From: Tsukamurella paurometabola
GTDB taxonomy: Bacteria > Actinomycetota > Actinomycetes > Mycobacteriales > Mycobacteriaceae
Direction: 5' to 3'
DNA: 64,000 nt
Assembly: GCF_900631615.1 (NCBI RefSeq)
Contig: NZ_LR131273.1
Location: 3,256,850-3,320,849 of the forward strand
Position 1 is the stretch's first letter, and the number at the start of each line of letters is the position of its first letter. Of this stretch, positions 44,346-61,114 are shown one piece after another. Both the position numbers and the translations under genes were made by a program. Below the pieces are notes generated by a model, which saw only the letters and a program-made list of their open reading frames with translations, was not told where the DNA came from and did not search any database.

Positions 44346-44347
44346 TT

Positions 44348-44357
44348 AACCGGCGGG
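44348..44357 (+). repeat. attL core
   Basis: AACCGGCGGG, identical to 61093-61102. It starts two bases after the ftsI stop. No tRNA gene is involved; the site is a protein-gene intergenic junction. The true crossover may extend a base or two either side, where the flanks differ. Confidence 0.8.
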
Positions 44358-44440
44358 AAGCACCTTTCGCCTGTTCGCACGCTGCGGCTCGCATCGTGAG
44401 CGGACGTAACGACACTGTGTGTGAAGTCGATCACGTTCCC

Positions 44441-45256
44441 ATGACGAAGGCATGGGGTGACGTTTTGACGAGCTATTCGAGCTACCTGGTCGCGGCGGGG
44501 CGGGCGCGCAAGACACGGCGGCTGCGGAAGTACTACGCGCGGTGCTTTGCGGACTTCACCCGGCGATCGCCCACCCGCGTGACGATCGATGACCTGTCCG
44601 ATTACCTTGCAGCCAATCCTCATTGGGCACCCGCCACCCGCCACGTCGCGCAGGTGAGCTTGCGCGACCTGTTCGGCTGGATGCATCGCACGGGGCGGCG
44701 TGGGGACAACCCGGCGGCACTGCTGCCCCGCGTGCGAGTGCCCGCCGGAGTTCCGCGACCGTGCCCGGACGAAGCGATCATCGCAACCATGGCGAACGTG
44801 GGCGCGCGCGAACTGCTCATGCTCCGTCTCGGCAGCGAGGCCGGCCTACGCCGCGAGGAGATCGCCACGACGCGAGGCGACAAGGTCTACCAGGCGATCG
44901 GCGGCTACGTCCTCAGCGTCACAGGCAAGGGCGGGCGGACGCGTGAGGTGCCGATCGGTGACGGTTTGGCCGAGGCGATCACAGCGCGTGGTGCAGGTTG
45001 GACATTCCCAGGGCGCACGGACGGGCACCTGTGCGCGGCTCGAGTTGGGGTGCTCATGTCCGAGCTGCTCCCAGGCCGGTGGACTGCGCACACGCTCCGC
45101 CACCGGTTCGGCACCGTGACCTACGCCGCCGACCACGACATTCGGGCCGTGCAGGAGCTGTTGGGCCACGCCTCGGTGGCGACGACACAGATCTACACGG
45201 CGGTACCCGACGACGCGAAACGGCGTGCCGCACAAGCTGCTAGCCTCGCCGCATGA
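44441..45256 (+). CDS. int: Tyrosine-type phage integrase
   Basis: 271 residues from ATG 44441 (an in-frame GTG at 44417 is possible). SAM-like core-binding domain (about 8-90: YSSYLVAAGRARKTRRLRKYY, VSLRDLFGWM) and a catalytic domain with R137 in GLRREE, K163 in TGKGGRTRE, H217 and R220 in TAHTLRHRFG, H243 in LLGHAS and the nucleophile Y252. No arm-binding N-terminal domain is present, so it is a short form. Lies right beside attL, reading inward. Confidence 0.95.
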   Translation: MTKAWGDVLTSYSSYLVAAGRARKTRRLRKYYARCFADFTRRSPTRVTIDDLSDYLAANPHWAPATRHVAQVSLRDLFGWMHRTGRRGDNPAALLPRVRVPAGVPRPCPDEAIIATMANVGARELLMLRLGSEAGLRREEIATTRGDKVYQAIGGYVLSVTGKGGRTREVPIGDGLAEAITARGAGWTFPGRTDGHLCAARVGVLMSELLPGRWTAHTLRHRFGTVTYAADHDIRAVQELLGHASVATTQIYTAVPDDAKRRAAQAASLAA

Positions 45257-45411
45257 GTGACGAACTTCGGGACGCTGCGCGTGCACTAGATGACGCGATA
45301 ACCCGCGAGGGGGTGGAACCGGCCTATCACCGCGCGCAGGTCGCCCGACTGCGCGCGGAGTGGCCGACGCTATGGGTCGCGATCGAGAGGGTACGCGCGG
45401 CGGCGAACTAG
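45253..45411 (+). CDS. Small protein coupled to the integrase
   Basis: 52 residues starting in an ATGA overlap with the integrase stop. Sequence begins MSDELRDAARALDD and is one or two charged helices with EWPTLWVAIERVRA at the end. Unknown. It ends in CTAG, overlapping the stop of the last gene of the leftward tail operon by four bases, so the two transcripts meet here. Confidence 0.65.
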   Translation: MSDELRDAARALDDAITREGVEPAYHRAQVARLRAEWPTLWVAIERVRAAAN

Positions 45412-46019
45412 GTCGAGGGACCGAGATAGGTCATGGCGAAGCGGGTCTTGATCCGGCCCTGCTGCGTGCCGCCGACGTTGAGCGCCGCGCCGCTGTTCTG
45501 GTACACGTAGCAGTTGAGCTTCTGGCCGGCGGTCAGCGGCATCGTCACCGAGAGCTGGTTGATCTGTTCCATGCTGACGCCGGGACGCACGTCTTCGGCG
45601 TACGCCTCGCCGCTCGCGTCGTCCACGAGCTTGATCACGCGCTGCCCGGTGGCGTTGTTGGTGCCCCACGGGACGACGATGCTGATCTGGTAGATGCCGG
45701 CGCGGGAGGCGATCAGTCCGTTGTTGAAGGTCTGCGCGCCGCCCGCGGTGCGAAGGTCGTATTCGACGGTGCCGGAGTTGTTGAAGGCGAAGAAGATCGA
45801 GCCGGACGCCGCGCTGTAGGCGGTGTTCAGGACGATGGACGCGGCGGGGCCGTTCGGTCCGCCGGGAGCTCCGGTGTCGCCCTTGCCACCCTTCAAGGTG
45901 CCGTTGTCGATGAGCGCTTCGAGTCGTTCGGCGAGGAGCTTGGTGACGTTGCCGATGGTCCACAGACCCTCGGTGTTGAGCAGGTACGGCAGGCCGTACT
46001 TGGCGGTGCCTCCGGGCAT
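45408..46019 (-). CDS. Tail-tip/fibre protein with a short collagen-like stretch
   Basis: 203 residues; ATG 46019 with AGGAGG upstream. Residues about 40-55 read GGKGDTGAPGGPNGP, a brief Gly-x-y collagen-like trimerisation segment. The remaining 145 residues look like a C1q/TNF-type jelly roll: SIFFAFNNSGTVEYD, GIYQISIVVPWGTNN, LVTMPL-like strands and a final RFAMTYLGPS. Phage receptor-binding or minor tail proteins often have this build. Last gene of the late operon. Confidence 0.7.
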   Translation of the reverse strand: MPGGTAKYGLPYLLNTEGLWTIGNVTKLLAERLEALIDNGTLKGGKGDTGAPGGPNGPAASIVLNTAYSAASGSIFFAFNNSGTVEYDLRTAGGAQTFNNGLIASRAGIYQISIVVPWGTNNATGQRVIKLVDDASGEAYAEDVRPGVSMEQINQLSVTMPLTAGQKLNCYVYQNSGAALNVGGTQQGRIKTRFAMTYLGPST

Positions 46020-46029
46020 GGTGGTCCTC

Positions 46030-47478
46030 CTACGGGACGGGGTAGACTTTCGGGTTGGACACGTAGTACAGATCGAACGGCGTGATCGAGTGATCGAACC
46101 GGAGCGCGTTCGGGTCATCGAGGGTGATCGACTTGTTCACCGTGTCCGGGGTGAGCGGCTTGCGGTTCGGGTCGAGCGGCATGGACGTGGGCGCGAGGTT
46201 GATCGTGAAGTGCCAGTAGCCAGCGACGTAGCGGATGATGCCGCCGCAGATGTGCCAGACGGGCGGCTGCCCGGTCGCCGCTGAGAACGGGCTGCCGGTG
46301 AGGGCGACCATGCCGATGGTCTGCGCGGGCTGGGTGAGCCGGTTGAAGGTGCACCAGTCGTCCACCAGTCCGGTCTTGCGGGTGTCCCACACGATCTGCG
46401 GGTGCATCGGCCGGCGACCGTCACCGAGGACCATGTTCTTGACGTCCTGCATCATCGGGTCGATCGCGGTCCCGTTGTTCATCCACGATTCCCACGACAG
46501 CCGCGCGGGCGGACCGCCGTCGCTCTTGACCGTGAGGTTGGTCTTCCAGTCCTTGTTGTTCGGCTTGTCGAACCACGAGCACGACAGGTCGGTGATGGAC
46601 TGCACGGTGTTCGCGGCGAGCCGGATGTCTCCGGTGACGTTGCACGCGCCGATGCTGCCGGGGTAGTACTTGCGCGTGTCGATCTCGGATTGCGCGCCGG
46701 TCGTGTCCTGCCAGTCCGGCGGGAACAGGTGCAGCACGTTCGATGAGGACGGCTTGCCGATCACCAGGTCATAGTTGCCCCACGTCGAGCCGGTGGGAAT
46801 CCGGTTGATCGTGTTGCGCTCAGGGTTGTAGCACCACTGGTCGGCGAAGCTGGTGTACATCGCGTTCACCATGTCCAGGACCGACTTGTTCTCTGTAGCA
46901 ACGGGTTTGCACATCGCGACGCCGAACCGGGATTCGAAGTACATCTCGCGGATGCCGGCGGGCGCGCCTTGGTTGCGAATCTTGACCGCCCGGTTGGTCA
47001 TGTTCTCTTCGGGGAGCACGTTCCCGGCAGCCCAGTTGAGCTGCCCGAGCGTGGCGGAGCGGTCGGCGGCTTGGATCGTCACGAGCCATCCGGCGGTCTT
47101 CCCGGCGGCGGTGCGCTGCACGGACCACACCACGTCCACGTTGGTGGTGAAGCCCTGGAAGATCGACTTGTCGCCGGGGTACAGCCCGCCCGCCGAGGCG
47201 GGTTCGGTGTAGACGATGTTCACACCGCGCCGCATGGCGGTGTCCTGCACGATCTTCGTCAGCCACGTACCGGGGTACGGCTCCCACAGCTTGAAGGTGA
47301 CCACCGCCGGGTCGGGCTGCGTCCACTGGTCGTCACGGCCCCACGAGATAGCGAGGTCGTCCACGAGGGTGGGGCGGTCGAGCGCGAACACCTTCTGCCC
47401 GGTGTCGTTGGTGACGGCCGGGGCGCACGAGAGGAACGTCCCATCGAGGATGATGCGCGGTTGCGGGTTGACGGGCAT
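46030..47478 (-). CDS. Minor tail protein
   Basis: 482 residues. Begins MPVNPQPRIILDGTFLSC and contains a long beta-rich region with WTQPDPAVVTFKLWEPYPGTW and GDKSIFQGFTTNVDVVWSVQRT, as in distal-tail/minor tail proteins of actinophages that follow the tape-measure gene. No enzymatic motif is visible. Four bases from the tape-measure stop. Role in tail-tip assembly is inferred from position and general character. Confidence 0.75.
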   Translation of the reverse strand: MPVNPQPRIILDGTFLSCAPAVTNDTGQKVFALDRPTLVDDLAISWGRDDQWTQPDPAVVTFKLWEPYPGTWLTKIVQDTAMRRGVNIVYTEPASAGGLYPGDKSIFQGFTTNVDVVWSVQRTAAGKTAGWLVTIQAADRSATLGQLNWAAGNVLPEENMTNRAVKIRNQGAPAGIREMYFESRFGVAMCKPVATENKSVLDMVNAMYTSFADQWCYNPERNTINRIPTGSTWGNYDLVIGKPSSSNVLHLFPPDWQDTTGAQSEIDTRKYYPGSIGACNVTGDIRLAANTVQSITDLSCSWFDKPNNKDWKTNLTVKSDGGPPARLSWESWMNNGTAIDPMMQDVKNMVLGDGRRPMHPQIVWDTRKTGLVDDWCTFNRLTQPAQTIGMVALTGSPFSAATGQPPVWHICGGIIRYVAGYWHFTINLAPTSMPLDPNRKPLTPDTVNKSITLDDPNALRFDHSITPFDLYYVSNPKVYPVP

Positions 47479-47481
47479 CGC

Positions 47482-49545
47482 CTACGCTCCGAGCTTCATG
47501 GCGTAGGTGGTGCCGGTCGTGCGGTCGGTGCGCTTGGTCGCGTACGCCACGGACCCGGCGACGGCGTTCGCGTCCACGATGCCGGAGCCGTCGACCTTGA
47601 CGTGCGTGCTGTTGTCCTGGTTGATGGTGACGCCGCCGCGCGCCGAGAGCGCGCCGAGGCCAGACAGGGACGGGTAGCCCTGCGCGAGGTGCAGCGCGTT
47701 CGGCGAGAGCTGGAGGCCGGCCGAGGGCGGGACCATGAAGCCGGTGAGGCCGGGGCCGATCATCGCCTCCCCGCCGAACAGGGACGTAAGCCACGACGGT
47801 GGGGACGGGAACCGGATCGAGGCGATAGCGGAGATGAGCGACTGCACGAAGCCGATGATCGAGGACACGGCGGACCCGAACGCCCGCGCCGCTCCGGCGA
47901 CCGCGCCGAACACCGCGCCGCCGACCGCCTGCACGCGCTGGAAGATGGACACGACGGTGTTGATGACGTTGGAGACCACGGCGGAGATGCCGTTCATGAC
48001 CGCCGAGACGACGGCCTGCACGGCGTTCCACACCGCCGACGCGGCGGCTTGCATGCCCTGCCAGGCGGCGGTGATGACGGCGACGACGCCGCTCACGATG
48101 CCCTGTATCAGGCTGATCGCGCCCTGCACGACGGCGACGATGCCATTCCACACGGCGGTGGCGACGGCCTGGATCATGTTCCACTGCATGGTGAAGTAGG
48201 CGACGATCGCCGCCCATATCGCCTGCAGGACGGCGACGCCGGCCTGCACGCCGGAGACGATCAGGTTCCATGCGGCGACCGCGAAATTGCACATCGCCTG
48301 CCAGATGGTCTGAAACCACGTGGTTTTCGTGGCGATCAGGACGATAACGGCGATCAGGGCCACGATCCCGGCGATGATCCACGTGATGGGGTTGGCGAGC
48401 AGCGCGAGGGCGAACTGAGCGGAGGCGACGGCGGCGACGCGGAAGCCGGTCGCGAGCGCGACCATGCCGGTCCGGGCGGCTGCGAGGGCGGGGCCGAGCA
48501 CGCCGACCGCGCCGCCGATCGAGGAGATAGCGGAGGCGACCGACGCGGCGAGCATGAGGCCTTTGAGCGCGGCGGCGAGGCCGATCGCACCGACGACGAC
48601 CGCCGGGAGCGCGGGGCCGAGCGCGCCGACGAGTGCGGAGACCAGCGAGGCGATCGGCGGGAGTAGCGGGGCGATCGCGGAGACGACCTGAGCGAATGCG
48701 CCGCCGAGGGTGCCGAGCGCGGGCGCGAGGTTGGTGAAGGTCTGCGCGAGCGCGGGGCCGGCGACGCGGGCGATTTCCGTCAGGGGCGGGGTCAGTGCGT
48801 TGACGGCGGTCCCGAGGCTGGTGAAGATCGCGCCGAGCGACGGTCCCATGGCGGCGGCGAGCTGCCCGAACAGGTTGACCAGGGAGCCGATCAGGTTGCC
48901 CAGGCCGGTGAGCGCGCCGGAGAAGGTGGTCATGATCGCGGAGACGGGCAGGTTGTTGAACGCCTGCCCGATGGTGCCGAGCATGCCACCGAACGCCGCG
49001 CCGACCTGCTGCGCCGACGCTGCCGCCTTGGCTCCGAAGCCGATCAGGCCGGCGGTGAGCTGATTGAGGCCGGGACCCAGCGCCGCGACGAAGGTCGCCG
49101 CGCCTGCGGTGAGCTGTTGCAGGGCGGGGAGGTTGGATCGAATGGTGGCGGCGAGGCCGTTGAAGGTACCGGACACCGCCCGCGCGACGCCCTGCATCTG
49201 CGGGGTGATGCCGGTCAGCACCGCGCCGAGGTCGCGGAAGCCGGACACCATGCCCTTGGCGAACTCGGCGGATAGCGCCTGTTTGAGCCGTTGCGCTGGC
49301 GCGGCGGCAGCCTGCGCGGCCTGCTTGATCCCGTCCATGCCGACCATGACGGCCGCGAGCGCCGGGGCGGCGAGCGCGCCGACCCCGGCGAGGCCGACGC
49401 CGAGCGCGCCGACCGCGCCCCCGGCGACGGCCGCGCCTGCGGTGATAGCCGTCAGGGCGGACCCGAGCTTGGCGATGTTCCGGGTCGCCTTCGCGAACCC
49501 GGAGTCATTCGCCTTGCTGATGATGTTGACGAATACTGTTGCCAC
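47482..49545 (-). CDS. Tape measure protein
   Basis: 687 residues, alanine- and glycine-rich with several long hydrophobic helical segments (for example LAALGPGLNQLTAGLIGFG, ANPITWIIAGIVALIAVIVLI) and imperfect repeats of a WNxIxAxVxAVWNGI type between about 410 and 560. Length sets siphovirus tail length; at about 1.5 angstrom per residue this is near 100 nm. GTG 49545 lies two bases after the end of the frameshifted chaperone frame, the standard order. Confidence 0.9.
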   Translation of the reverse strand: MATVFVNIISKANDSGFAKATRNIAKLGSALTAITAGAAVAGGAVGALGVGLAGVGALAAPALAAVMVGMDGIKQAAQAAAAPAQRLKQALSAEFAKGMVSGFRDLGAVLTGITPQMQGVARAVSGTFNGLAATIRSNLPALQQLTAGAATFVAALGPGLNQLTAGLIGFGAKAAASAQQVGAAFGGMLGTIGQAFNNLPVSAIMTTFSGALTGLGNLIGSLVNLFGQLAAAMGPSLGAIFTSLGTAVNALTPPLTEIARVAGPALAQTFTNLAPALGTLGGAFAQVVSAIAPLLPPIASLVSALVGALGPALPAVVVGAIGLAAALKGLMLAASVASAISSIGGAVGVLGPALAAARTGMVALATGFRVAAVASAQFALALLANPITWIIAGIVALIAVIVLIATKTTWFQTIWQAMCNFAVAAWNLIVSGVQAGVAVLQAIWAAIVAYFTMQWNMIQAVATAVWNGIVAVVQGAISLIQGIVSGVVAVITAAWQGMQAAASAVWNAVQAVVSAVMNGISAVVSNVINTVVSIFQRVQAVGGAVFGAVAGAARAFGSAVSSIIGFVQSLISAIASIRFPSPPSWLTSLFGGEAMIGPGLTGFMVPPSAGLQLSPNALHLAQGYPSLSGLGALSARGGVTINQDNSTHVKVDGSGIVDANAVAGSVAYATKRTDRTTGTTYAMKLGA

Positions 49546-49547
49546 AG

Positions 49548-50328: not shown

Positions 50329-50793
50329 CTACGGGGTGGGGGCGGGCGGGTACTTGGTGGAGTCGGCGGTGCTGTCCGGCGTGAACGTCGGCAGGCCTAC
50401 GATGTCCCACTCCGCATCCGAGATGTTGCGCTTCTTGACATCGCCGCCGTACTCGACGGGATCGACGATGACGCGGCCGTTGACGGCGGCGGCTTCGCCC
50501 TCCTTGGGGATGAAGGTGAACGGAACCTCCTTGCCGGCGTTCTTCCACGTCCAGTCGATCAGGCCGTCCTTCTCGTTGTCCTGACCGGCGGAGAATTCCA
50601 GCTTGCTGGTGTAGAGCTTCTCCCCGGCGATGGTGTCGCCGCACAGGGTGGGCAGGTCGTCCTCCTTGTCGGAGTCGAAGGTGATCTTGGCGGCGGTCAC
50701 CTGGCACGAGATGTCGAGCAGGGAAGCGCCGGTGCCGGAGCCGAAGATCAGCGATCCGGGTCCGAGGGCGACGATGGGCCGTTTGATAGCCAT
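50329..50793 (-). CDS. Major tail (tube) protein
   Basis: 154 residues. Begins MAIKRPIVALGPGSLIFGSG and runs as a compact beta protein: ISCQVTAAKITFDSDKEDDLPTLCGD, then AGEKLYTSKLEFSAG, VPFTFIPKEGEAAAVNGRV. The size, beta character, acidic content and position six bases from the gp10-like gene fit a siphovirus tail-tube subunit. Confidence 0.8.
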   Translation of the reverse strand: MAIKRPIVALGPGSLIFGSGTGASLLDISCQVTAAKITFDSDKEDDLPTLCGDTIAGEKLYTSKLEFSAGQDNEKDGLIDWTWKNAGKEVPFTFIPKEGEAAAVNGRVIVDPVEYGGDVKKRNISDAEWDIVGLPTFTPDSTADSTKYPPAPTP

Positions 50794-51142: not shown

Positions 51143-51487
51143 TCAGCCGACCACCAGACGGCGGTACTGCCCGAGGCGGAGGTACTGGTCCAGGTCGCGG
51201 TCGCGGCCCGGGATGTACGTCGCGCCGTCGATTCCCTGACTGACCCCGACCGGGGAGTTGCGCCGTTCGATGTTGCGGGCCGCGAGCATCGTCGCGCCCT
51301 GCATCACGTCGGCCGGCCACTCCCCGTTGGCGGGCGTCGCCATGTAGGAGGTGATGAAGGCGTTGACCGCCTCGCACACCTCCGCGATCAGCGTCGCGTC
51401 GTCCGCCACGGCGGGGTCGTTGGCGTACAGCCACCGCTTGACGCGTGTCACGTCGGCGGGGCCGGTGCCCTCGGTCGGGGTCGTCAT
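51143..51487 (-). CDS. Head-tail connector (gp6-like)
   Basis: 114 residues, all helical: DVTRVKRWLYANDPAVADDATLIAEVCEAVNAFITSYM, then ADVMQGATMLAARNIERRNSPVG. The pattern matches head-tail adaptor proteins (HK97 gp6/SPP1 gp15 type), which form a ring under the portal. It ends one base before the next gene and starts four bases after the capsid stop. Confidence 0.78.
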   Translation of the reverse strand: MTTPTEGTGPADVTRVKRWLYANDPAVADDATLIAEVCEAVNAFITSYMATPANGEWPADVMQGATMLAARNIERRNSPVGVSQGIDGATYIPGRDRDLDQYLRLGQYRRLVVG

Positions 51488-51490: not shown

Positions 51491-53542
51491 TTAGCCTGCC
51501 GCCGGGGCGGCGAACTGGACCTTGACCAGGCCGTCCGGGTTGTCGAGCGTGTGGGCGGTGTAGCCGAACAGGGCGCGGTCGCGGCCACCGTGCGACAAGT
51601 GCTCCGCCTCCACCCGGAGCGGGCTACCCGGCAGCTCGTAGAACGTCGCGGCCTGCTTGGCACCCGCGACCAGCGTTCCCGCCGGCACCGCCGAGGTCCA
51701 GACGATCGAGGCCGGGTCCGGTGCGGCGAGGCCGAGGAACGCGGGGGTCGTCTGCGCGGTGTAGTCGAGCAGGGCGAACTGGTCGTTCGGGTTGGCGAGG
51801 TAGTAGGACGGCGTGACGCCGGTCGCCTGATCGACGGCGGTCCGGGCGACGATCATCGCGCGGAGCAGGTCTGTCGCGGCGGCGTTGGTGATCGTCTTCG
51901 CGTTCGCGTTGACCCACACGCCCGTGGCGGTGTCGGTGACGATCGCGTAGGACTCGTTCATCGCGCGCCAGTAGGACTCGAGGATCGTGGCGTCGCCGAA
52001 GTCGTAGAACTTGCGGTCGAGGTCGTGGCCTCCGGCCCAGCGCGCGGCCTCCGCCTCGTAGGGAGCGATCGCCACCGGGTTGGTGGGAATCTCCGCCTTG
52101 TCGCCCGCGTAGGACGCCACGAGCGGCTTCTGCGTCCAGGTGAAGCCCTGGATGCGGTAGGAGGTGAGGTCGCGGCGACCGAGCAGCGGAATCAGGCGGC
52201 GGCTCTTGGCGGGGCCGGACCACAGCTCACCGAGCCACTGCGGCGGCTCCGCGTCGATCATCGCGGAGCCCTTGATGTCCGCGAGCGCCGCGTGCGCCAC
52301 GTCGCCGCCGCGACCGGCCTGAATCATGCGGATCGTCTCGGCAGCTTCGCCGATCGACAGGTGCACATTCTCGCCGCCTCCGCTGCCCTGGTTCTCGCGA
52401 CCGGGCACGATCAGCTCGCGCGAGCGGTGGAAGGACGCGGCGGCGCGCTCACCGTCCGGCTGCTCGGTGGCCGCGCTGTCCTGCTCGTCGGCGTCGATGA
52501 AGTCGAGGTCGTCGGCGGAGACGGCGTTGACCGCCTCGGTGCCGTAGACCTTGATCGCGGCGGCGCGGGCGTCCGCCTCGGATGCGCCCTTGGCGATCAG
52601 GGCGAGGATGAAGTCCTTGACGTTCATGGTGTTTCCGTTCTGTTCGGTGGTGGTGGTCGGGTTGTGGAATGAGGCGTTGACGCTCTGCACGCGGGCGGAG
52701 CGGAAGGCGGGCGTGTCCACGAGGGCGACGCCGGTCAGGATCGAGTCGATGACGGTGTTGCCGTTCTTGCGGATCGCGGCGACCTCGCCGGAGAGCGCGT
52801 CGCGGACCTTCTCCTTGATCTGGTGAATGGCGCGGTCGCCGTCCGGGGTGTCGGCGACCTTGAAGGACATGTACAGCCCGTCCGGCTTGTACTCGGCGTC
52901 CGTGGCGTAGCCGACCACCGCGTGGTCCTTCGTGCCGGTGTGGTCCAGGTGCAGCTTGCATCGGGCGAGGTCACGCGGGATGCGGATGGTGTTGCGCCCG
53001 AACTCCAGTGCGCCGAGGTCGGTGTAGCCGGTTTCCTCCCACGGGAGCACGAGACCGGTCACGGTCCGAGCCTTCGCCGCGTGGGCGACGTGCCCGCCCT
53101 CGGTGTGCAGTCCGGCGACCATCTCGGCGGAGAACCGGGCGACGCCTCCGAGCGATCCGTCCCCAGGCGGCGGCTGCACGCGGTGCCGTCCGAGCAGCTC
53201 GGTGGTGGGCATCGGGATCGCTCCGGTGTCGGGGTTACCGGTGAGCGCGGCAAGCTTTGCGGCGAGTTCCTGATTCTGCTGGGCGAGCTGTTCGTAGTTG
53301 CCGTTGACCTTCTTGTTGGTCTCGGCTACTGCGCCGTTGATCTTCTCGACGTCGCCGCCGATCTTCGCGACGCCGAACAGGATCGCCAGATACGGTGTGG
53401 CGAATCCGAGCAGGGTCGGTAGCGACTCGACCACGGACTGATCGCGGATCGCGTCGTAGAGGATGGCGACGATGATCAGGAGCACGATCAGCGAGCCGAG
53501 CGAGAGGGCGAGCATCTGTAATCGGTTGTTCTTCAACGTCAT
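51491..53542 (-). CDS. Holin-like membrane domain, prohead protease and major capsid protein in one frame
   Basis: 683 residues, no stop inside. Residues 1-110: two membrane helices (about 11-29 and 41-58) and a coiled coil (60-100), like a small holin. Residues 155-290: HK97-type prohead protease with LPWEETGYTDLG, H201 (HLDH), S251 (ALSGEVA) and ILTGVALVDTPAF. Residues 306-683: acidic scaffold-like segment then an HK97-fold capsid (LWSGPAKSRRLIPLL, SYRIQGFTWTQKPLV, ESYWRAMNESYAIVTD). Internal ATG at 53212 (residue 111) has GGAG eight bases upstream, and ATG 52627 (residue 306) a weak site, so shorter products are likely. ATG 53542 overlaps the upstream TGA. Confidence 0.82.
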   Translation of the reverse strand: MTLKNNRLQMLALSLGSLIVLLIIVAILYDAIRDQSVVESLPTLLGFATPYLAILFGVAKIGGDVEKINGAVAETNKKVNGNYEQLAQQNQELAAKLAALTGNPDTGAIPMPTTELLGRHRVQPPPGDGSLGGVARFSAEMVAGLHTEGGHVAHAAKARTVTGLVLPWEETGYTDLGALEFGRNTIRIPRDLARCKLHLDHTGTKDHAVVGYATDAEYKPDGLYMSFKVADTPDGDRAIHQIKEKVRDALSGEVAAIRKNGNTVIDSILTGVALVDTPAFRSARVQSVNASFHNPTTTTEQNGNTMNVKDFILALIAKGASEADARAAAIKVYGTEAVNAVSADDLDFIDADEQDSAATEQPDGERAAASFHRSRELIVPGRENQGSGGGENVHLSIGEAAETIRMIQAGRGGDVAHAALADIKGSAMIDAEPPQWLGELWSGPAKSRRLIPLLGRRDLTSYRIQGFTWTQKPLVASYAGDKAEIPTNPVAIAPYEAEAARWAGGHDLDRKFYDFGDATILESYWRAMNESYAIVTDTATGVWVNANAKTITNAAATDLLRAMIVARTAVDQATGVTPSYYLANPNDQFALLDYTAQTTPAFLGLAAPDPASIVWTSAVPAGTLVAGAKQAATFYELPGSPLRVEAEHLSHGGRDRALFGYTAHTLDNPDGLVKVQFAAPAAG

Positions 53543-53673
53543 TCCTTCGCGGACGGTTCGATGTTGTCGGGGAGGTCGCGGGCGGTCCACAGGATATAGG
53601 CGACCAGCGCGGCGATCGTGGCGGCGATGCCGGAGACGATGCCGAGCACGAACACGAGGGCGATCAGGGCCAC
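53539..53673 (-). CDS. Small single-helix membrane protein (holin-like)
   Basis: 44 residues from GTG 53673, overlapping the endolysin stop by ten bases, and ending in TGA that overlaps the ATG of the fusion gene (ATGA). One long membrane helix (IALVFVLGIVSGIAATIAALVAYIL) followed by a short charged tail (RDLPDNIEPSAKE). With the endolysin before it and the two-helix domain after it, it completes a lysis cassette; holin or antiholin role is inferred. Confidence 0.7.
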   Translation of the reverse strand: MALIALVFVLGIVSGIAATIAALVAYILWTARDLPDNIEPSAKE

Positions 53674-54383
53674 AGGATCACCCGCCTGGTGTCGGGGCCG
53701 ACAACGCCGTCAGCGGCGATGCCGCCCCGGCGCTGCGCCTCGCGCACGACCGCCTCGGTGGCGGGGCCGAAGTCGCCGTCCACGTCGAGATGGCTGTAGC
53801 GGGGGAAGACCCGGTTGAGGTGGGCCTGCAAGGCGCGCACGTCGTCCCCGGTGTCGCCGCGCCGGAGCACGGGACGACCGGGCGCGGGCGCGGGCGAGGT
53901 CGGCGTGACGCCGATCTGGAAGCGTCCGGCGCGAATGTCGGCGGCGAGCGCGATCAGGCGCGGGTCTCCGGGGCGCACGCCGATCTGCCAGTGCATCTCG
54001 TCCGGGCGGTTCCACCTCCGACCCCAGAACATCACGCCTCGGAACGCGGCTTCGAGGTCGTTGCACTTGGCGACGCGATCGGCGGGCATCACGCGCTGCC
54101 CCCACGGGTACTGCGGCGCGTTGATGTCTACGGCTGTGCCGGACATGTGGTTGGAGTCGGCCACGTCGTTGTCGGCGGACCAGCCCCACACCTGCGAGCG
54201 GATCGGTTCGACGTTGACGCTGTACGCGGCGAGGAACCGAGACAGGACAGTCGCCACGTCGCCCGCGCGGACGGGGACTTGGCGTCCCGCTCCGGGCGCG
54301 GTGATGAGCACGCACCCGGAGCGGTTGATCATGGGCCAGCCGTTCTCGGACGGAACGCCGGGGCGGACGGGGTAGCGGGTCAC
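53664..54383 (-). CDS. Endolysin: M15 peptidase plus peptidoglycan-binding domain
   Basis: 239 residues. N-terminal VanY/M15-type zinc peptidase: SNHMSGTAVDI supplies H79 and D86, and DEMHW supplies H131. The C-terminal part (about 172-239) is a PG_binding_1 domain: VLRRGDTGDDVRALQAHLNRVFP and DGDFGPATEAVVREAQRRGG. It cuts peptide crosslinks in the host wall. No signal peptide, so release depends on a holin. The start overlaps the portal stop by four bases, an unusual place for a lysis gene. Confidence 0.88.
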   Translation of the reverse strand: MTRYPVRPGVPSENGWPMINRSGCVLITAPGAGRQVPVRAGDVATVLSRFLAAYSVNVEPIRSQVWGWSADNDVADSNHMSGTAVDINAPQYPWGQRVMPADRVAKCNDLEAAFRGVMFWGRRWNRPDEMHWQIGVRPGDPRLIALAADIRAGRFQIGVTPTSPAPAPGRPVLRRGDTGDDVRALQAHLNRVFPRYSHLDVDGDFGPATEAVVREAQRRGGIAADGVVGPDTRRVILWP

Positions 54384-55507
54384 TGCGATGCCTCCGTGTT
54401 GGTGGTCGGGGTCGGGGCGGGGCGCTTCGATGCGCCGCCGTCGTCGGGAGTCCCGGCGATCGCGCCGGGACCAAGCAGCTCTTCGAGGTCGAAGGCGATC
54501 CGCGTGCCGCGCGGCGACATGTCGTCCAGACCGAGCCGCGCACTGATCGGGGCCATGTACGCGGTCAGACCGAAGTCGATCAAGTCCTGTTGCTTGGCCT
54601 GCGCGTTGACGTAGGTCAGTCCCTCCGCGCTCGCGGCGTCGATGATCGATCCGGGGATGCCAGCGGAGCGCGCCACGTCGAGGGCGGCGGCGTTGCGGCC
54701 CTCAACCAGCAAGTGCTGGTTGAAGGTGCCGAGTTCCTTGACGTCGATGCCGGCGGAGGTGACCGCCACGCCGGAGCCTTCGCCGCGCCGCGCTGCAATC
54801 CAGGCGTCGCGCGCTTCGAGGAGCTGTTCCTCGGTGGCAGGGAACTCGTTGGTCTGGTGCAGGTGCACGTACGCCGAGGGCGTGGACGCGGCCTTGGTGG
54901 CGGCGTTGAGCAGGTCGCGGGCGTGCACGAGCGAGGTCAGTCCGTCCACCAACAGGCCGTCGTCGGTGCCGGGTATGACGATCACCTCATCGAGCGACGC
55001 CGGGTACTCGGTGCCGTTGCGTCCGGTGTAGACGAACTGACCGGTGTCGCCGTCGATTCGCCACTGCGCGAACGGGATTCGATCGGCAGACAGGACCGGG
55101 CCGAGCGTGTTCGGTGCGGCGGGCGCGCCGCGCTGGACCGCCCACGCGCTCACCCCGTAGAAGAACAGGTCATCGACGGTCCACAGCATCCGGTGATACG
55201 GGGACACCGGGCCGTCCGTCCGGTCGAGCCAGTTCGGGCGGTCCGCCTTGCCGAGCAGCGCGTCACCTCGGTAGGCGCGCAGTGGCATCCGGGCGATGCT
55301 GTTGCATATGGTGCGGCGGGCGCGGTTGACGGCGGGGATGCGCATGGCCTGCTCGCGCGTCATGCCGCCGGTCGGGAACCAGTCCGGCGCGACGATGGGC
55401 CACAGGTGGTTCACGTCGTCATACGGGGAGAGGCGACGGAGGTTCGCCTCACCGTTCGCGACGGCGGGGATCGCGAGGGCGGCGCGCAGTTTCGATACCA
55501 GGCTCAC
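54380..55507 (-). CDS. Portal protein
   Basis: 375 residues from GTG 55507. HK97-type portal: TREQAMRIPAVNRARRTICNSIARMPLRAYRG at the start of the wing/stem region, LLVDGLTSLVHARDLLNAATKAASTPSAYVHLHQ and NAQAKQQDLIDFGLTAYMAPISARLG near the C terminus. It forms the ring through which DNA is packaged. The frame is open further upstream but without a credible start; no clear ribosome site is seen. Confidence 0.88.
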   Translation of the reverse strand: MSLVSKLRAALAIPAVANGEANLRRLSPYDDVNHLWPIVAPDWFPTGGMTREQAMRIPAVNRARRTICNSIARMPLRAYRGDALLGKADRPNWLDRTDGPVSPYHRMLWTVDDLFFYGVSAWAVQRGAPAAPNTLGPVLSADRIPFAQWRIDGDTGQFVYTGRNGTEYPASLDEVIVIPGTDDGLLVDGLTSLVHARDLLNAATKAASTPSAYVHLHQTNEFPATEEQLLEARDAWIAARRGEGSGVAVTSAGIDVKELGTFNQHLLVEGRNAAALDVARSAGIPGSIIDAASAEGLTYVNAQAKQQDLIDFGLTAYMAPISARLGLDDMSPRGTRIAFDLEELLGPGAIAGTPDDGGASKRPAPTPTTNTEASQ

Positions 55508-55536
55508 ACGAACCAGACTGTGAACAACCGTCAGGA

Positions 55537-55740
55537 TTACGAAACGTAGTTCGGCGCTCCCGCGCGGTAGCGAGCGTGCCGTGCCTCCGCTGCGTCGTGG
55601 TGGACGAACAGGCAGTGGCCGGCGTACAGACGCCACGCGGAGCGCCGGTCGGTCGCGCCGCACCGCCACAGGCAGCCGGGGCGGTTGCACACGATGACGG
55701 CGGAGTAGTTGGTGAAGTCGATCTTGTGGTTACGTGCCAT
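55537..55740 (-). CDS. Small cysteine/histidine-rich protein between terminase and portal
   Basis: 67 residues. Cysteines and histidines in VCNRPGCLWRCG and YAGHCLFVHHDAAEARH could bind one zinc ion. It starts four bases after the terminase stop. Small zinc proteins at this place are common in actinophages; the function is unknown. Confidence 0.7.
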   Translation of the reverse strand: MARNHKIDFTNYSAVIVCNRPGCLWRCGATDRRSAWRLYAGHCLFVHHDAAEARHARYRAGAPNYVS

Positions 55741-55743: not shown

Positions 55744-57171
55744 TCATATCCAAATCTTCGGTGCGACTGGTGGTTTCGGCTTTGTGAGCGCGGCGCGGAC
55801 GGCGAGTACGGCGGCTTCAAGGACGGTGATCGGGGCGGCGGAGCCGCGTCGGGCGAGGACTTGTCGGTCGCCCACGGTGCGCAGCGTGGCGGCGTCGAGC
55901 GCTTCGCTGAAGGCGGGGTGAGCGCGGAGCCGGACGGCCGGCGCGGTGCCGGATTCCGTCAGCGGCTTACGGAGGCGGTCGAGCATATCGGCGGTTGCCG
56001 ACGCGAGTTCGGCGGTGCCCACTTTGGTGACGATCGCGCCCGCCCGGTCTGCCGCCTCGGCGAGCGAGGCGGCGGGGCCGTTGCCGTCGATGACGACGTG
56101 CCCGCCGTTGCGGTTGGTGACCGAGGTGAGCTTGCCGACCAGATCGTCCGTGGCGTCGGTGATAAGGACGACCTCCACCCATGGGACGCCGGCCGCGTCG
56201 ATCACGCACGAGACGATCGCGGCTTCGTCGCGCTCGAAGGACACGGCAGCGCCGAACGCCGGTTGGCCGGCGGGCAGGTCGGCGGTGACGGTCGCCAGCT
56301 CCGCCACCTCGGCGGGGATGAGGCGATCGAAGGCGGACGTGGGCCGGTTGCCGTAGGCGCGGGTGAACTCACCGGGGGAGAGCTGGGCGCGCCCCGTGGT
56401 CAGCACGTCCATGCCCTGTGTGTGGCCGATCGCCGGGTGGGCGGCGGCGATCGCCTCATCGTCCAGGGGGTCCACGTCGGGGCCGATGCCGTAGTCGATC
56501 AGGGCGATACCCGGTTCCCCTGCCCTGCCTCGATCGACCAGGCCGTGGAACCACGTGGACTTGGCGGTGCCCATGGTGGAAACCACGATGATCTGCGGCC
56601 CTGGCGGGATGCCGCCCTTGCGGCCACGGGTGGCCTGCGTCGGGCCGATCGCGCCCATGATGCCCTCGGCAAGGTCTTCATCGAAGAACCACGCCTCATC
56701 GAGGATCACTAGATCGGACTGGCTTGAATGCAGGCTGTCAGGCGTCGGCGGGAACGCCCGGAACCTCCCGCCCATGCGCGGCAGGTTGATCGAGGTGTCA
56801 CCCGCGCCGCGCAGGCACTTGAAGCCCGAGCGGAGCGGCGAGAGTTCCACGTCATCGATGAGTTCAGTGAACTGCTCGCGGGCCTTGATGCCGGTCTGCG
56901 CGGTGTACCAGATACGGGCCTTGGGGCGGGACATGGTGCGCCGGACCGCTGTGCCCTTGACCAGTTCCGTCTTGCCGGACTGCCGGGGAACGGTGATGAC
57001 GACCAGCGGGTTGAGCAGCCAGCCGTCCGCGTCGCACTCCTCGATCAGGCCGGACGCCTGGTGCTGCCATGGCATGAACGGACGCCCAAACGCGCGATCG
57101 GCAAGGAACGCGACCTTTGGGGCGTAGCTGTACGGGCTACGGCGCGGGGTGATGAACCTCGGTGTCGCCAC
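55744..57171 (-). CDS. Terminase large subunit
   Basis: 475 residues. ATPase domain: PWQHQASGLIEE (Q motif), Walker A VPRQSGKT with K67, WYTAQTGIKAREQF, Walker B DLVILDEA with D158/E159, and motif III IIVVSTMGT. The nuclease domain follows with acidic residues in VSFERDEAAIVS, VVLITDATDD and VVIDGNG. Drives DNA into the capsid and cuts genomes. Overlaps the small subunit gene by 35 bases. Confidence 0.93.
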   Translation of the reverse strand: MATPRFITPRRSPYSYAPKVAFLADRAFGRPFMPWQHQASGLIEECDADGWLLNPLVVITVPRQSGKTELVKGTAVRRTMSRPKARIWYTAQTGIKAREQFTELIDDVELSPLRSGFKCLRGAGDTSINLPRMGGRFRAFPPTPDSLHSSQSDLVILDEAWFFDEDLAEGIMGAIGPTQATRGRKGGIPPGPQIIVVSTMGTAKSTWFHGLVDRGRAGEPGIALIDYGIGPDVDPLDDEAIAAAHPAIGHTQGMDVLTTGRAQLSPGEFTRAYGNRPTSAFDRLIPAEVAELATVTADLPAGQPAFGAAVSFERDEAAIVSCVIDAAGVPWVEVVLITDATDDLVGKLTSVTNRNGGHVVIDGNGPAASLAEAADRAGAIVTKVGTAELASATADMLDRLRKPLTESGTAPAVRLRAHPAFSEALDAATLRTVGDRQVLARRGSAAPITVLEAAVLAVRAALTKPKPPVAPKIWI

Positions 57172-57550
57172 CGGTCGCCTCCTGCTCGGCGGACATCATC
57201 TCGCGGATGAGGCCGGCCATCTCGTCTTCGCCCTCGGTGACGCGGGACTCCGGGGTCATGTGCAGACGGTCGAGCAGATCGACCGCACCGGGCAGCGCCT
57301 TGGACACCGCCCACAGGTCGCGCTGCCGCTCCGCCTCATCGAAGTTCGTTCCGATCGCGCGGAGCAGCGTCACCGCCGCCTCGTCCACGTCCTCGATGTA
57401 CCCCTTGGCGTAGGCGGCATGGATCGAACGGTCGATCGCCTCGCTGTGCCGGCCACGGGTCACCTGGCCGTTGACCTTGGCGGCGGTCGGCTCGTCATCG
57501 AATAGCGACTGCTGACCGAGCTTGGGCGCTCGCGGGTCAGGTCGGGGCAT
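57137..57550 (-). CDS. Terminase small subunit-like protein
   Basis: 137 residues; AAAGGAG six bases before ATG 57550. Acidic, helical protein with HSEAIDRSIHAAYAKGYIEDVDEAAVTLLRAIGTNFDEAE and a C-terminal acidic tail. Place directly before the large subunit and helix content fit the small subunit that recognises packaging sites; a DNA-binding motif is not obvious. Confidence 0.75.
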   Translation of the reverse strand: MPRPDPRAPKLGQQSLFDDEPTAAKVNGQVTRGRHSEAIDRSIHAAYAKGYIEDVDEAAVTLLRAIGTNFDEAERQRDLWAVSKALPGAVDLLDRLHMTPESRVTEGEDEMAGLIREMMSAEQEATGGDTEVHHPAP

Positions 57551-57556
57551 TTCGGT

Positions 57557-57639: not shown

Positions 57640-57840
57640 TTAGCAGCGCGGTGTCAAAAACTGCGCGACAACGCTTTCGATCAGTGCGCGCTGTTCATCG
57701 CGCGTGTGCACCGCGTTGGGTTTGAACTCGGTGTGCTCGGTGCCGTCCGCGCCGCGCCACCACTTGATCCACCCGACCTCGGTCACCTTGCGGGGCGGTG
57801 GCTGTGTGCCGCCGCGTCCGTACAGCGGGTCGTCATTCAT
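57640..57840 (-). CDS. Small phage protein, unknown
   Basis: 66 residues: MNDDPLYGRGGTQPPPRK, then VGWIKWWRGADGTEHTEFK and RALIESVVAQFL. Overlaps the HNH gene end by eight bases. A beta-turn-rich protein with several tryptophans; no family recognised. Confidence 0.65.
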   Translation of the reverse strand: MNDDPLYGRGGTQPPPRKVTEVGWIKWWRGADGTEHTEFKPNAVHTRDEQRALIESVVAQFLTPRC

Positions 57841-58126
57841 CGGTGTCTCCTAGCCAGTTTCGGGATGGTGCGAGGTTGGTGGTGGGGCGTCCGTGGAGGG
57901 TGCGCCACTCGGTGAGGGTCATGTCTCCGCGCTGCCGGTTGCAGGGCTGGCAGGCGGGGCGGAGGTTGTCGAGGGTGTCGGGGCCGTTGCGCGATCGGGG
58001 GATGAGGTGATCGGCGGTCGTGGCGGTCCCTCGGCACCGTGGGCCGCGCAGGTGGCAGCGCGTCCCGTACGTGGCGAGGGTCGCCCGCACGAGGCGCGTT
58101 GCCGGCCTGCCGCCCCACTTACGCAC
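57833..58126 (-). CDS. HNH endonuclease
   Basis: 97 residues from GTG 58126. HNH fold: CHLRGPRCRG knuckle, ADHLIPRSRNGPDTLDNLRPACQPCNRQRGD with the catalytic DH, the middle asparagine in LDNL and the closing CxxCN. In cos-type phages an HNH protein next to the terminase is needed for genome cutting. The gene lies just upstream of the terminase pair, as expected for that role. Confidence 0.9.
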   Translation of the reverse strand: MRKWGGRPATRLVRATLATYGTRCHLRGPRCRGTATTADHLIPRSRNGPDTLDNLRPACQPCNRQRGDMTLTEWRTLHGRPTTNLAPSRNWLGDTDE

Positions 58127-58319
58127 GGTTGAGCCTCGCGAGCCTGTTCGCCTCGGTCATCGCCGTGAAGTGGTACCGGTGCGGGTACCCGACAGCCTCC
58201 CAGTGGTCCCAGTGACGGCGGTAGACCTGCCAGCACAGTGCGGGGAAGCCCTTCAATCGCACGGGCAGCACGCGCCAGTGCGCGCCACCGCCCACGAAGC
58301 CGTTCACGGTCGGCCCCAC
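58119..58319 (-). CDS. Small phage protein, unknown
   Basis: 66 residues from GTG 58319, overlapping neighbours on both sides. Rich in aromatic and basic residues (LPVRLKGFPALCWQVYRRHWDHWEAVG). No motif recognised. The eight-base overlaps with the HNH gene show it is part of the same translation chain. Confidence 0.6.
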   Translation of the reverse strand: MGPTVNGFVGGGAHWRVLPVRLKGFPALCWQVYRRHWDHWEAVGYPHRYHFTAMTEANRLARLNRA

Positions 58320-59372: not shown

Positions 59373-59851
59373 AGCTCACCTCGGCGGCGGAGGACTTGCA
59401 CGCGGGAGCGGACGCCGCTCGCGGTGCGGTGGAGCTTGGCGGCGAGTTCGCGGACCGGCAGGGTGCCATACAGGCGGATCAACTCCGCCTCGTCGGCGGC
59501 GGTCCACTCGGTGCCGTGCAGCTCGGAGGTGAGGATCGTGTCGGCCTGCTCGCGGCGGCGGGCGGCGGCGACGGTCGCCTTGACCTTCTCGCGGTTGGCG
59601 GCGTAGTAGGCGCGGTTCTTCGCGCGGACCTGCTCGGCGTTGCGTTCCTTCCACGCGCGGGATGCCGCGCGCCCCTTGTCGGAGCGCTTCCACGCGGCGC
59701 GCTGCGCGTCATGGCGGGCCTTCGCGGCAGGATTCCGGCGTTCCCAATCGGCCTGATACGCGGTGTTGGCGGCGCGGCAGTCGTCGCACCGGCAGCCGGT
59801 CGTGTACTTCGAGCGGGTGCCGTGGGAGGCGTTGCGGGCGCGGGTCACCAC
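59369..59851 (-). CDS. Phage DNA-binding protein with zinc knuckle and SANT/Myb-like helix-turn-helix
   Basis: 160 residues from GTG 59851. N terminus SKYTTGCRCDDCRAANTAY forms a zinc knuckle; a long basic helix follows (about 35-100, many Arg/Ala/Lys); residues about 113-160 (TEWTAADEAELIRLYG, then LPVRELAAKLHRTASGVRSRVQVLRR) are a Myb/SANT-like three-helix DNA-binding domain. Could be an activator of the late genes or an HNH-derived DNA-binding protein without the nuclease part. Confidence 0.75.
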   Translation of the reverse strand: MVTRARNASHGTRSKYTTGCRCDDCRAANTAYQADWERRNPAAKARHDAQRAAWKRSDKGRAASRAWKERNAEQVRAKNRAYYAANREKVKATVAAARRREQADTILTSELHGTEWTAADEAELIRLYGTLPVRELAAKLHRTASGVRSRVQVLRRRGEL

Positions 59852-60021
59852 AGCGTGCCCTTATCTTGGGCGACCAGGGCGTGCTTCTCGCGGATCGACC
59901 AGCCGCAGTGGGTGCAAGGCCAGTCGCCGGCGGATGTGCCCTTGCCGAGGTGGCGCACGTCCTTGGTGCACCCGCCCGGGAGGCACGGCGGGCGGTTCAT
60001 CTTCTCGGGGAGGTCGGTCAT
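59845..60021 (-). CDS. Small zinc-finger-like phage protein
   Basis: 58 residues from ATG 60021. Cysteines in PPCLPGGCTKD and WPCTHCGWS make two CxxC-like pairs. It overlaps neighbours on both sides (ATGA with the small membrane protein gene). Unknown role. Confidence 0.7.
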   Translation of the reverse strand: MTDLPEKMNRPPCLPGGCTKDVRHLGKGTSAGDWPCTHCGWSIREKHALVAQDKGTLW

Positions 60022-60134
60022 CGGCGGCGCTCCGCGCGGTCGGCGCGACCGGGGCGCTCGGCAGCCCACCAGGCCACGAGCACGGGCGTGCAGATGATCG
60101 GCACCGTCAGGAGCGCCTGCACAGCGGGGCTCAT
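60018..60134 (-). CDS. Tiny membrane protein
   Basis: 38 residues from ATG 60134: MSPAVQALLTVPIICTPVLV plus a short basic tail (RADRAERRR). One membrane helix with the positive end inside. Its TGA overlaps the ATG of the next gene. First gene of the leftward run. No strong ribosome site, so confidence is moderate. Confidence 0.55.
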   Translation of the reverse strand: MSPAVQALLTVPIICTPVLVAWWAAERPGRADRAERRR

Positions 60135-60257
60135 CGGGCACCGCCAGCCCGACCCGACAGGTGCCGCGCACGCGGGAGGAGGAACGCGAGGCGGCGGACC
60201 TGTCGGTGGGCTACCCCAGAATGCGATGCATCGACGGGTATCCGGCCCGTCGGTGCC

Positions 60258-60539
60258 GACGCCCGGACCGACCGGGCGGCACCCTTGAAAGGGGAAGATT
60301 TGTGACTGACTACAGCGATCAAGATGAGAACAACGCCAGCGCAGAGGCTCAGCGCGCCGAGACGATCTACAACCTCGGTGATGACGTTCCGATCACGGCA
60401 GACTTCCTGCGCAACGTCCCGTTCACCGGACGCTTCGAAGACCTCTACGGGCAGCTCGTCGGCCACACGGCGGTTGCTCTCGCTGCGATCGAGCGCCGCG
60501 CGAACATGCGCGGCGGTGACTGACGCCCGAACCGACCGG
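60258..60539. repeat. 18-bp direct repeat flanking a small plus-strand gene
   Basis: GACGCCCGGACCGACCGG at 60258-60275 and GACGCCCGAACCGACCGG at 60522-60539 (one mismatch), 264 bases apart, enclose the 60302-60523 gene. The second copy abuts the excisionase stop codon. May be a protein-binding site pair or the trace of a small insertion. Confidence 0.75.
60302..60523 (+). CDS. Small acidic protein read opposite to the late operon
   Basis: 73 residues from GTG 60302 with GGGGAAG upstream. Acidic N terminus (TDYSDQDENNASAEAQRAE) then ITADFLRNVPFTGRFEDLYGQLVGHTAVALAAIERRANM, mostly helical. Divergent from the leftward run that begins at 60134. Unknown; its place near the excisionase suggests an early gene. 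Confidence 0.65.
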   Translation: MTDYSDQDENNASAEAQRAETIYNLGDDVPITADFLRNVPFTGRFEDLYGQLVGHTAVALAAIERRANMRGGD

Positions 60540-60540
60540 C

Positions 60541-60747
60541 TCACCGCGCACGCTCCGCTGCCATCGCCTCAACGGCGGTGCGGTCGAGCACGTAAGCGCC
60601 GGTCCCGCCGGTCATCTTCGCCACGACCGGCAGCCGACCAAGGCGAGCCCAACGCTGGGCGGTGGAGAGCGGGAGGCCCAACATCGCCGACGCGTCACTG
60701 ACGGAGCACACCGAAGTAATTACAGGCATGGAACTCATGGCAGCCAT
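60541..60747 (-). CDS. xis: Excisionase-like MerR-type helix-turn-helix protein
   Basis: 68 residues from ATG 60747; ATG 60738 or 60729 are possible. SVSDASAMLGLPLSTAQRWARLGRLPVVAKM and YVLDRTAVEAMA form the wing-helix fold of phage excisionases/HTH_17 proteins. It would steer the integrase toward excision. Its start codon lies inside a candidate operator, and it diverges from the XRE regulator gene, the classic switch layout. Confidence 0.8.
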   Translation of the reverse strand: MAAMSSMPVITSVCSVSDASAMLGLPLSTAQRWARLGRLPVVAKMTGGTGAYVLDRTAVEAMAAERAR

Positions 60748-60798
60748 AGTGACGTAAAGACTTCAGTTTTGGCAACCCGACGCGCAATAGTGAGGTAA
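60743..60798. promoter_or_regulatory. Paired direct repeats in the xis/regulator divergent promoter
   Basis: GCCATAGTGACGTAA at 60743-60757 and GCAATAGTGAGGTAA at 60784-60798 match at 13 of 15 positions and are 41 bases apart, close to four helical turns. The first covers the excisionase start codon; the second lies where the -35 of the regulator promoter would be, upstream of TAGAGT at 60814-60819. Likely operators for the XRE protein. Confidence 0.6.
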
Positions 60799-60826
60799 TC
60801 GCGTCATTGCCGGTAGAGTGCTGACC

Positions 60827-61105
60827 ATGACGACTGCACATCGGCGCGGGGTGATTCCGGATCAGCCGCGCAACCTCCGGCTAGAGCTGGCAAGGCGGCA
60901 TATTGGCGCGAGTCAGCGGGATTTCGCTGAGATGCTCGGCGTGTCGAACACGACCGTGCAGCGAGCAGAGCGCGGCGACGACGTTCGCCGTTCGACGTTG
61001 CTTGCGTGGGCGATGGTGACCGGCGTTGATTTGGACTGGTTGGAGCACGGGACGGTGCCGACTGACGGTGGTCCTAACCAGGGGGAGGGTTCAACCGGCG
61101 GGTAG
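60827..61105 (+). CDS. XRE-family regulator whose stop codon lies beyond attR
   Basis: 92 residues from ATG 60827; TAGAGT at 60814-60819 places the start of transcription at or next to the ATG, so it is probably leaderless. Helix-turn-helix in LELARRHIGASQRDFAEMLGVSNTTVQRAERGDD. The C-terminal tail crosses the attR core, and the TAG stop (61103-61105) comes from the chromosomal side. Possibly the immunity repressor. Only nine bases separate it from murE, on the same strand. Confidence 0.82.
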   Translation: MTTAHRRGVIPDQPRNLRLELARRHIGASQRDFAEMLGVSNTTVQRAERGDDVRRSTLLAWAMVTGVDLDWLEHGTVPTDGGPNQGEGSTGG

Positions 61106-61108
61106 GAT
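61093..61108 (+). repeat. attR core and murE -10 region
   Basis: AACCGGCGGG (61093-61102) repeats the attL core. TAGGAT at 61103-61108, just outside, fits a -10 box six bases before the murE GTG at 61115, suggesting a leaderless murE transcript; any -35 element would now lie in prophage DNA. Confidence 0.7.
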
Positions 61109-61114
61109 CTACCG

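Follow-up and report, generated by a model that had tools for sequence, protein, structure and literature searches.

Integration-dependent immunity has been worked out experimentally in phage BPs, where the long form of the repressor is degraded and integration removes its tail, leaving a stable, active form (PMC4557955). In BPs and Angel the phage attachment site (attP) lies inside the repressor gene and host sequence creates the stop codon. A 2022 review describes such immunity systems as confined to transfer RNA (tRNA) genes (PMC9262239). Exceptions are prophages of M. abscessus, in which integration-dependent immunity is described at four non-tRNA sites, attB-8, -12, -13, and -14, typically with short cores (PMC8092301); immunity of this type, also at non-tRNA sites, is thus already known. 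Here we analyze a 64-kb window (G000:C1:3256850-3320849, the whole stretch of DNA under study) from the one-contig, 4.70-Mb genome of Tsukamurella paurometabola, in which a 16.7-kb prophage separates ftsI from murE in the division and cell wall (dcw) cluster. Judged from sequence, the anatomy of its repressor gene and right attachment site (attR), taken together with that of its relatives, is that of integration-dependent immunity, here with a bacterial attachment site (attB) at the junction of two protein genes.

In organization the prophage resembles the small temperate Gordonia phages (McGonagall, Jeanie, GMA5, and GRU3 of Cluster CW, and also Rahul, Coeur, Emperor, SallySpecial, and EricDab), whose genomes span 15.9-17.7 kb. 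Like the prophage, these phages carry the repressor and then the integrase in the same direction, with divergent early genes and a repressor frame that runs across attP, which is tRNA-like in their case, and the virion genes of Rahul are colinear with those of the prophage. In McGonagall, Jeanie, GMA5, and GRU3 this attP corresponds to a tRNA-Lys gene and the core measures 37 bp (PMC5559632), whereas the prophage uses a protein-gene junction and a 10-bp core. BPs differs as well: its attB is of the tRNA-Arg type, its core measures 35 bp, and its tail has 33 residues (PMC4557955, PMC9262239).

The four M. abscessus sites are alike in having short cores at protein-gene or intergenic positions and a junction stop codon supplied by the host, and at two of them transcription of host genes has to come from inside the prophage (PMC8092301). 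The host genes are different, none being called a dcw gene in the part of PMC8092301 drawn on here, and the start of a host gene overlaps the core at attB-12 and -13, whereas in our window the core directly adjoins a promoter-like box, with both box and start codon intact. The Bifidobacterium breve prophages Bb423phi2 and 689b-1, each of about 18 kb, share the same inferred immunity design but have a tRNA-Met gene as attB. In searches that covered titles, the beginnings of abstracts, and a minority of full texts, we found no report of an attB in the dcw cluster or of a repressor stop codon taken from a murE promoter box.

Sister genomes carry the empty site

The insertion is delimited by two copies of a 10-bp core and flanked by intact host genes:

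42378 to 44345, forward strand: host ftsI (Pfam Transpeptidase 1.4e-71, PBP_dimer), with its stop codon TAG at 44343-44345
44348 to 44357, forward strand: core of the left attachment site (attL), AACCGGCGGG, placed by sequence and by the empty site in sister genomes
61093 to 61102, forward strand: attR core, AACCGGCGGG, read as the codons ..ACC GGC GGG of the repressor
61115 to 62674, forward strand: host murE (NF001124 7.2e-182, over its cut-off)

Two bases, TT, separate the ftsI stop codon from the left core, and 12 bases (61103-61114) separate the right core from the GTG start of murE at 61115. The core alone is weak evidence for these ends because AACCGGCGGG occurs 31 times in the 4.70-Mb genome when both attachment copies are counted (15 forward and 16 reverse; the reversed-letter control gave 5 and 6), and the proof comes instead from the empty site. 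murE was found in all 16 same-genus genomes, and 15 of these besides the window's own were compared across the ftsI-murE gap, one of them (G011) being unreadable since a contig end cuts the junction. In each of the 14 readable sister genomes the gap measures 24-28 nucleotides and holds no insert. Six of the empty sites (G002, G003, G004, G005, G008, and G015) carry TAGTTAACCGGCGGGTAGGAT, exactly the joined flanks of the window, while the other eight have one or more base differences inside the core. The site is thus occupied in one of 15 readable genomes of the genus, the window's own included, and because sister genomes show the empty site, the insertion between ftsI and murE is real and precise.

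These results bear out the initial annotation, which had placed an integrase-bearing prophage between ftsI and murE, had taken the 10-bp repeat at 44348 and 61093 as its exact ends, two bases past the ftsI stop and 12 before the murE start with both flanking proteins intact, and had proposed the comparison of gaps in related genomes; all of its coordinates were verified. It was also right to call the target unusual, as the four phages of Cluster CW integrate at a tRNA-Lys gene and the other small relatives compared share the same tRNA-like stretch. Judged by eye, the core and its surroundings here are not tRNA-like. Its further suggestion that the junction is a tolerated insertion spot finds weak support: of 110 other family genomes, 107 carry ftsI and murE together on one contig and in one orientation, and the gap exceeds 500 nucleotides in two of these (1.3 kb in G419 and 11.7 kb in G067), in both cases with contents that by eye are unrelated to the phage. 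In G067 (5.1 Mb; L200, G067:C1:2299300-2313500) the gap appears by eye to contain an IS256-like transposase along with two large proteins that are cyclase/LuxR-like. The remaining three genomes comprise G008, in which a contig break intervenes and the site is empty, and G413 and G432, in which murE and the best ftsI match are on different strands or contigs and the dcw cluster is perhaps rearranged.

The repressor gene runs across attR

The features on which the immunity reading depends lie at the two ends of the prophage:

60827 to 61105, forward strand: immunity repressor in its prophage form, 92 residues, its end lying across attR (Pfam HTH_3 7.6e-10; 53-59% identical to the McGonagall and Rahul repressors)
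44358 to 44399, forward strand: detached 3' tail of the repressor, KHLSPVRTLRLAS and a TGA stop codon in the inferred circular form, from the frame across the joined ends
44441 to 45256, forward strand: tyrosine integrase, 271 residues, C-terminus AASLAA (Pfam Phage_integrase 1.3e-17; 45-52% identical to integrases of small Gordonia phages)
60743 to 60757, forward strand: candidate operator 1, GCCATAGTGACGTAA, with the motif GTGASGTAA
60784 to 60798, forward strand: candidate operator 2, GCAATAGTGAGGTAA, with the same motif
60814 to 60819, forward strand: candidate -10 box of the repressor promoter, TAGAGT, 7 nucleotides before the ATG at 60827

The CI-like repressor is the last phage gene, and its frame passes through the right core as ...GGT TCA ACC GGC GGG TAG, so that the stop codon (61103-61105) consists of the first three host bases beyond the core. 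When attP is reconstructed by joining the prophage ends, giving ...TTCAACCGGCGGGAAGCACC, the frame that enters the attR core carries on into the sequence on the attL side and gains 13 codons (KHLSPVRTLRLAS, ending RLAS), which would lengthen the repressor from 92 to 105 residues. The inferred attP therefore lies inside the repressor gene, and the prophage form of the protein is shortened by a stop codon at the host junction, both as expected of integration-dependent immunity; the attB itself is the ftsI/murE junction instead of the tRNA gene typical of such systems.

The ends of the two proteins and the layout of their genes recur in relatives. The integrase terminates in AASLAA, comparable to the host transfer-messenger RNA tag ADSNQRDFALAA, which ends ALAA; an ssrA-like integrase end of this kind is usual, not universal, in such systems. 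In ten related phages, Jeanie not among them, the repressor in its virion form ends in -AA in nine and in -AS in Angel, and six of the ten integrases end in -AA. The same tRNA-like stretch lies within the repressor gene in eight of the ten (seven by DNA, and GMA5, whose repressor is gene 19, by protein). Angel, which we take to be a member of the same Cluster G as BPs, has a 41-kb genome and an integrase 43% identical to that of the prophage. The motif GTGASGTAA occurs only twice within the 64 kb, in two 15-bp repeats (60743 and 60784) that are candidate operators. The repressor seems to have a promoter of the leaderless kind (TAGAGT), and a comparable TANNNT box precedes an in-frame repressor start in six of nine related phages tested. 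For BPs, PMC4557955 describes the degradation signal as an ssrA-like tag, while PMC8092301 lists BPs among the systems that lack one.

A promoter-like box precedes murE across the order

The host bases that follow the right core read TAGGAT CTACCG GTG, and the first six of them may serve two functions:

61103 to 61108, forward strand: TAGGAT, host bases that supply the repressor stop codon (TAG) and a candidate murE -10 box (TANNNT before murE in 40 of 43 loci)

TANNNT at such spacing is a mark of leaderless promoters in these bacteria. To score it, a box was accepted 5-9 nucleotides before any in-frame start codon of a locus. Loci of murE were drawn from the genus and the order; 43 of the 45 were scored, and contig ends cut the other two. 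The box was present 6-9 nucleotides before an in-frame murE start in 40 of the 43, against 2.0 expected from dinucleotide shuffles, and it was found both in the genus (14 of 14) and outside it (26 of 29). The murF control gave four of 45 loci, with 0.2 expected. All but one of the 40 positive hexamers begin with TAG or TAA. AGG is absent from 15 of the 26 positive hexamers outside the genus, which speaks against ribosome binding as the origin of the pattern. Apart from the phage, the TANNNT box conserved before murE throughout the order is of interest in itself, as it points to a leaderless promoter within the dcw cluster; a literature search combining Rv2158c with leaderless found nothing.

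From this sequence pattern, murE probably keeps its own leaderless promoter, with a -10 box whose first letter is the host base next to the core, and since TAGGAT directly follows the core, the TAG that ends the repressor forms the front half of the putative box, which stays intact. murE probably also lies directly downstream of the repressor gene and receives read-through from it. A scan for terminator-like sites, used solely to place none between the repressor and murE, gave five in total, not above shuffles (mean 6.8), and none in that interval. The initial annotation had read the insertion as cutting the ftsI-murE transcript and had overlooked the repressor gene that crosses attR, through which the attachment site would become part of the immunity switch. 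The geometry behind its claim stands, but the reading of a cut transcript needs revision because murE probably starts its own message and is also reached by transcription straight from the repressor gene.

Proposed mechanism and alternative explanations

We consider it likely that the element is an integration-dependent immunity phage with an attB in the dcw cluster that borders the murE promoter on its 5' side, and we infer its immunity, repressor degradation, and transcription along the following lines. In an infecting phage, the repressor and integrase would be expressed from one promoter, the repressor bearing an unstable 13-residue tail. The integrase, which may itself be a ClpXP-type degradation target through its SLAA end, would recombine attP with AACCGGCGGG, and integration would remove the tail, with the host TAG ending the repressor at 92 residues in a stable form. 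This stable repressor would bind the two operator-like repeats and silence the early genes. Because joining to the chromosome supplies the repressor stop codon, immunity probably switches on only after integration. Under this proposal murE would survive because integration leaves the -10 box and all sequence beyond it unchanged, with additional read-through from the repressor gene, while transcription from ftsI would enter the integrase gene 95 bases downstream, an event that the SLAA end may keep harmless.

Several observations weigh against this proposal. A 13-codon open frame is unremarkable by itself, attP is known from joining the ends rather than by observation, and the circular repressor would end in -LAS instead of -LAA, a weaker resemblance to a degradation tag. 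The leaderless-type box before the repressor is absent in three of the nine related phages, and some of the six boxes precede a start other than the annotated one. At murE, the box rule fails at three of the 43 loci (L045, L049, and L051), up to four in-frame starts per locus were allowed, and the 43 loci are mutually related; a consensus promoter scan of the region gave zero promoter-like sites (shuffle mean 1.2). TAGGAT also holds AGGA 7 nucleotides before the GTG, which could serve ribosome binding here.

A temperate prophage of the ordinary kind, its repressor working as in lambda, could produce a similar picture, since repressor and integrase usually flank attP and a repressor would then lie near attR with a tail arising from chance read-through; the shortness of the tail, its last residue of S rather than A, and the position of most of the repressor outside the tail all fit such an account. 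We nevertheless regard it as improbable, because relatives keep the layout, with a repressor ending in -AA or -AS in ten of ten, and because the integrase has a host-type tag end. The AGGA before the GTG and the lack of a terminator-like site between repressor and murE would also suit a different account of the junction, in which TAGGAT serves chiefly for ribosome binding and murE, lacking its own promoter, depends in the lysogen on that of the phage repressor. Across the order, however, the box is TANNNT and not purine-rich, with AGG lacking in 15 of the 26 positive loci outside the genus, and G067, despite its 11.7-kb gap, retains GGTAGGGT before the murE frame, though 3 nucleotides from the first ATG and so outside the 5-9 nucleotide rule; we judge a promoterless murE unlikely, if somewhat less so than a chance tail. 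Least probable of all, in our estimate, is a decayed or domesticated remnant that has lost excision. In its favor, the element occupies just one of the readable genomes in the genus, yet both cores are intact, none of 26 prophage open reading frames (ORFs) tested has an internal stop, and 19 of them are colinear with Rahul.

Gene content and completeness of the prophage

Alongside the integrase at the left end and the repressor at the right end, both on the forward strand, the virion genes and most early genes lie on the reverse strand:

45408 to 46118, reverse strand: virion structural protein, fibre-like (phrog_13989 2.3e-13)
46030 to 47478, reverse strand: minor tail protein (by tblastn, McGonagall minor tail protein gp15, 37%)
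47482 to 49545, reverse strand: tape measure protein (by tblastn, Rahul tape measure, 41%, nearly full length)
50329 to 50793, reverse strand: major tail protein (phrog_4574 3.4e-47)
51143 to 51487, reverse strand: head-tail connector (phrog_5938 6e-21)
51491 to 53590, reverse strand: capsid and protease fusion (52% to the Rahul capsid-protease fusion over residues 21-693; weak proheadase_HK97 match, under its cut-off)
53664 to 54383, reverse strand: endolysin with M15 peptidase and peptidoglycan-binding domains (Pfam)
54380 to 55690, reverse strand: portal (61% to the Rahul portal; TIGR01537 3.5e-8, under its cut-off)
55744 to 57171, reverse strand: terminase large subunit (61% to the GMA5 terminase over 100% of its length)
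57137 to 57550, reverse strand: terminase small subunit (41% to that of Rahul)
57833 to 58126, reverse strand: HNH endonuclease (Pfam HNH 2.2e-11)
60541 to 60747, reverse strand: Cro/excisionase-like helix-turn-helix (HTH) gene, divergent from the repressor (Pfam HTH_17 1.5e-7; 40% to an unannotated McGonagall frame)

The McGonagall counterpart of the HTH gene is an unannotated frame between gp20 and its repressor (L003:2290-2463). The single frame at 51491-53590 seems to combine an N-terminus with a membrane segment (by eye), a prohead protease, and a capsid, and a similar fusion is present in Rahul. A small forward frame of 73 residues at 60302-60523 opposes the early genes and has no PADLOC or NCBIfam match; a defense-gene scan of ten ORFs gave no match.

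In tblastn searches, Rahul (16.2 kb) matched the 19 colinear ORFs, its proteins being 26-79% identical to those of the prophage; these counts come from the Rahul table, as a table labelled GMA5 also held Rahul in mixed rows. The size of the prophage falls in the 15-18 kb range of small Gordonia-type siphophages, whose virion genes it shares in colinear order, and it is apparently a complete temperate siphovirus prophage of that kind. In a nucleotide comparison, 6.6 kb of head and packaging sequence is 68% identical to Coeur and Rahul over 78% of the query, while in a megablast of the whole prophage the best-ranked record covers 6% and none covers 80%. Phage clusters of this kind are defined by a gene-content measure. 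The IMG/VR record L188 (14.6 kb) contains the same prophage DNA, 100% identical over 14,105 bases, and is shorter than the 16.7 kb between the cores; it is perhaps from the same genome as the window.

Searches for related elements at the site

Integrase relatives were collected from the 16 same-genus genomes (three matches) and from 397 genomes of the order (15 matches), with the window's own included in both, and from wider sets, namely the best 80 of 547 matches in genome_contigs and 29 loci in viral_contigs. No ftsI match was found by tblastn at these loci (best 80 of 547 in genome_contigs), and murE gave a single Mur-ligase match among the matches listed (L079, 37%), about 6 kb upstream of the integrase; this result is no proof of absence because many loci hold too little flanking sequence for a whole element. 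The attL pattern occurred in five stretches of viral_contigs, by eye without ftsI context, and the attR pattern in none. A terminase was sought in G008 and G011 and found in neither, while in viral_contigs the terminase search returned L188 and one 31% relative. In G011, another genome of the genus, a contig of 5 kb carries a 58% identical integrase (L013/L074, G011:C582). As to the sites of integrase relatives, ARAGORN reported tRNA-type genes in three of 16 loci, and a scan for tRNA T-loop-like letters upstream of 38 integrases gave a mixed outcome; neither result is relied on here.

Implications for phage and host

Known cases of integration-dependent immunity involve tRNA genes and a small number of other host genes, and the finding would add to these a site between two genes of cell-wall synthesis. 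Both ftsI and murE are essential, and the locus suggests how a phage can land in an essential operon without breaking it, by stopping at a promoter-like box that doubles as the repressor stop codon. More tentatively, and with greater doubt than confidence, we raise the idea that the box acts as a landing mark with two jobs, its TAG or TAA front being the stop codon that activates the repressor and the remainder keeping an essential gene running, with repressor and murE forming one transcription unit in the lysogen. If true, the repressor message would be tied to cell-wall synthesis, and loss or induction of the prophage would change murE expression. Genetic tools for these bacteria could also make use of the junction as an integration site. 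If a murE promoter inside the cluster is conserved across the order, as the box suggests, ftsI and murE would form a single transcription unit to a lesser degree than their arrangement implies.

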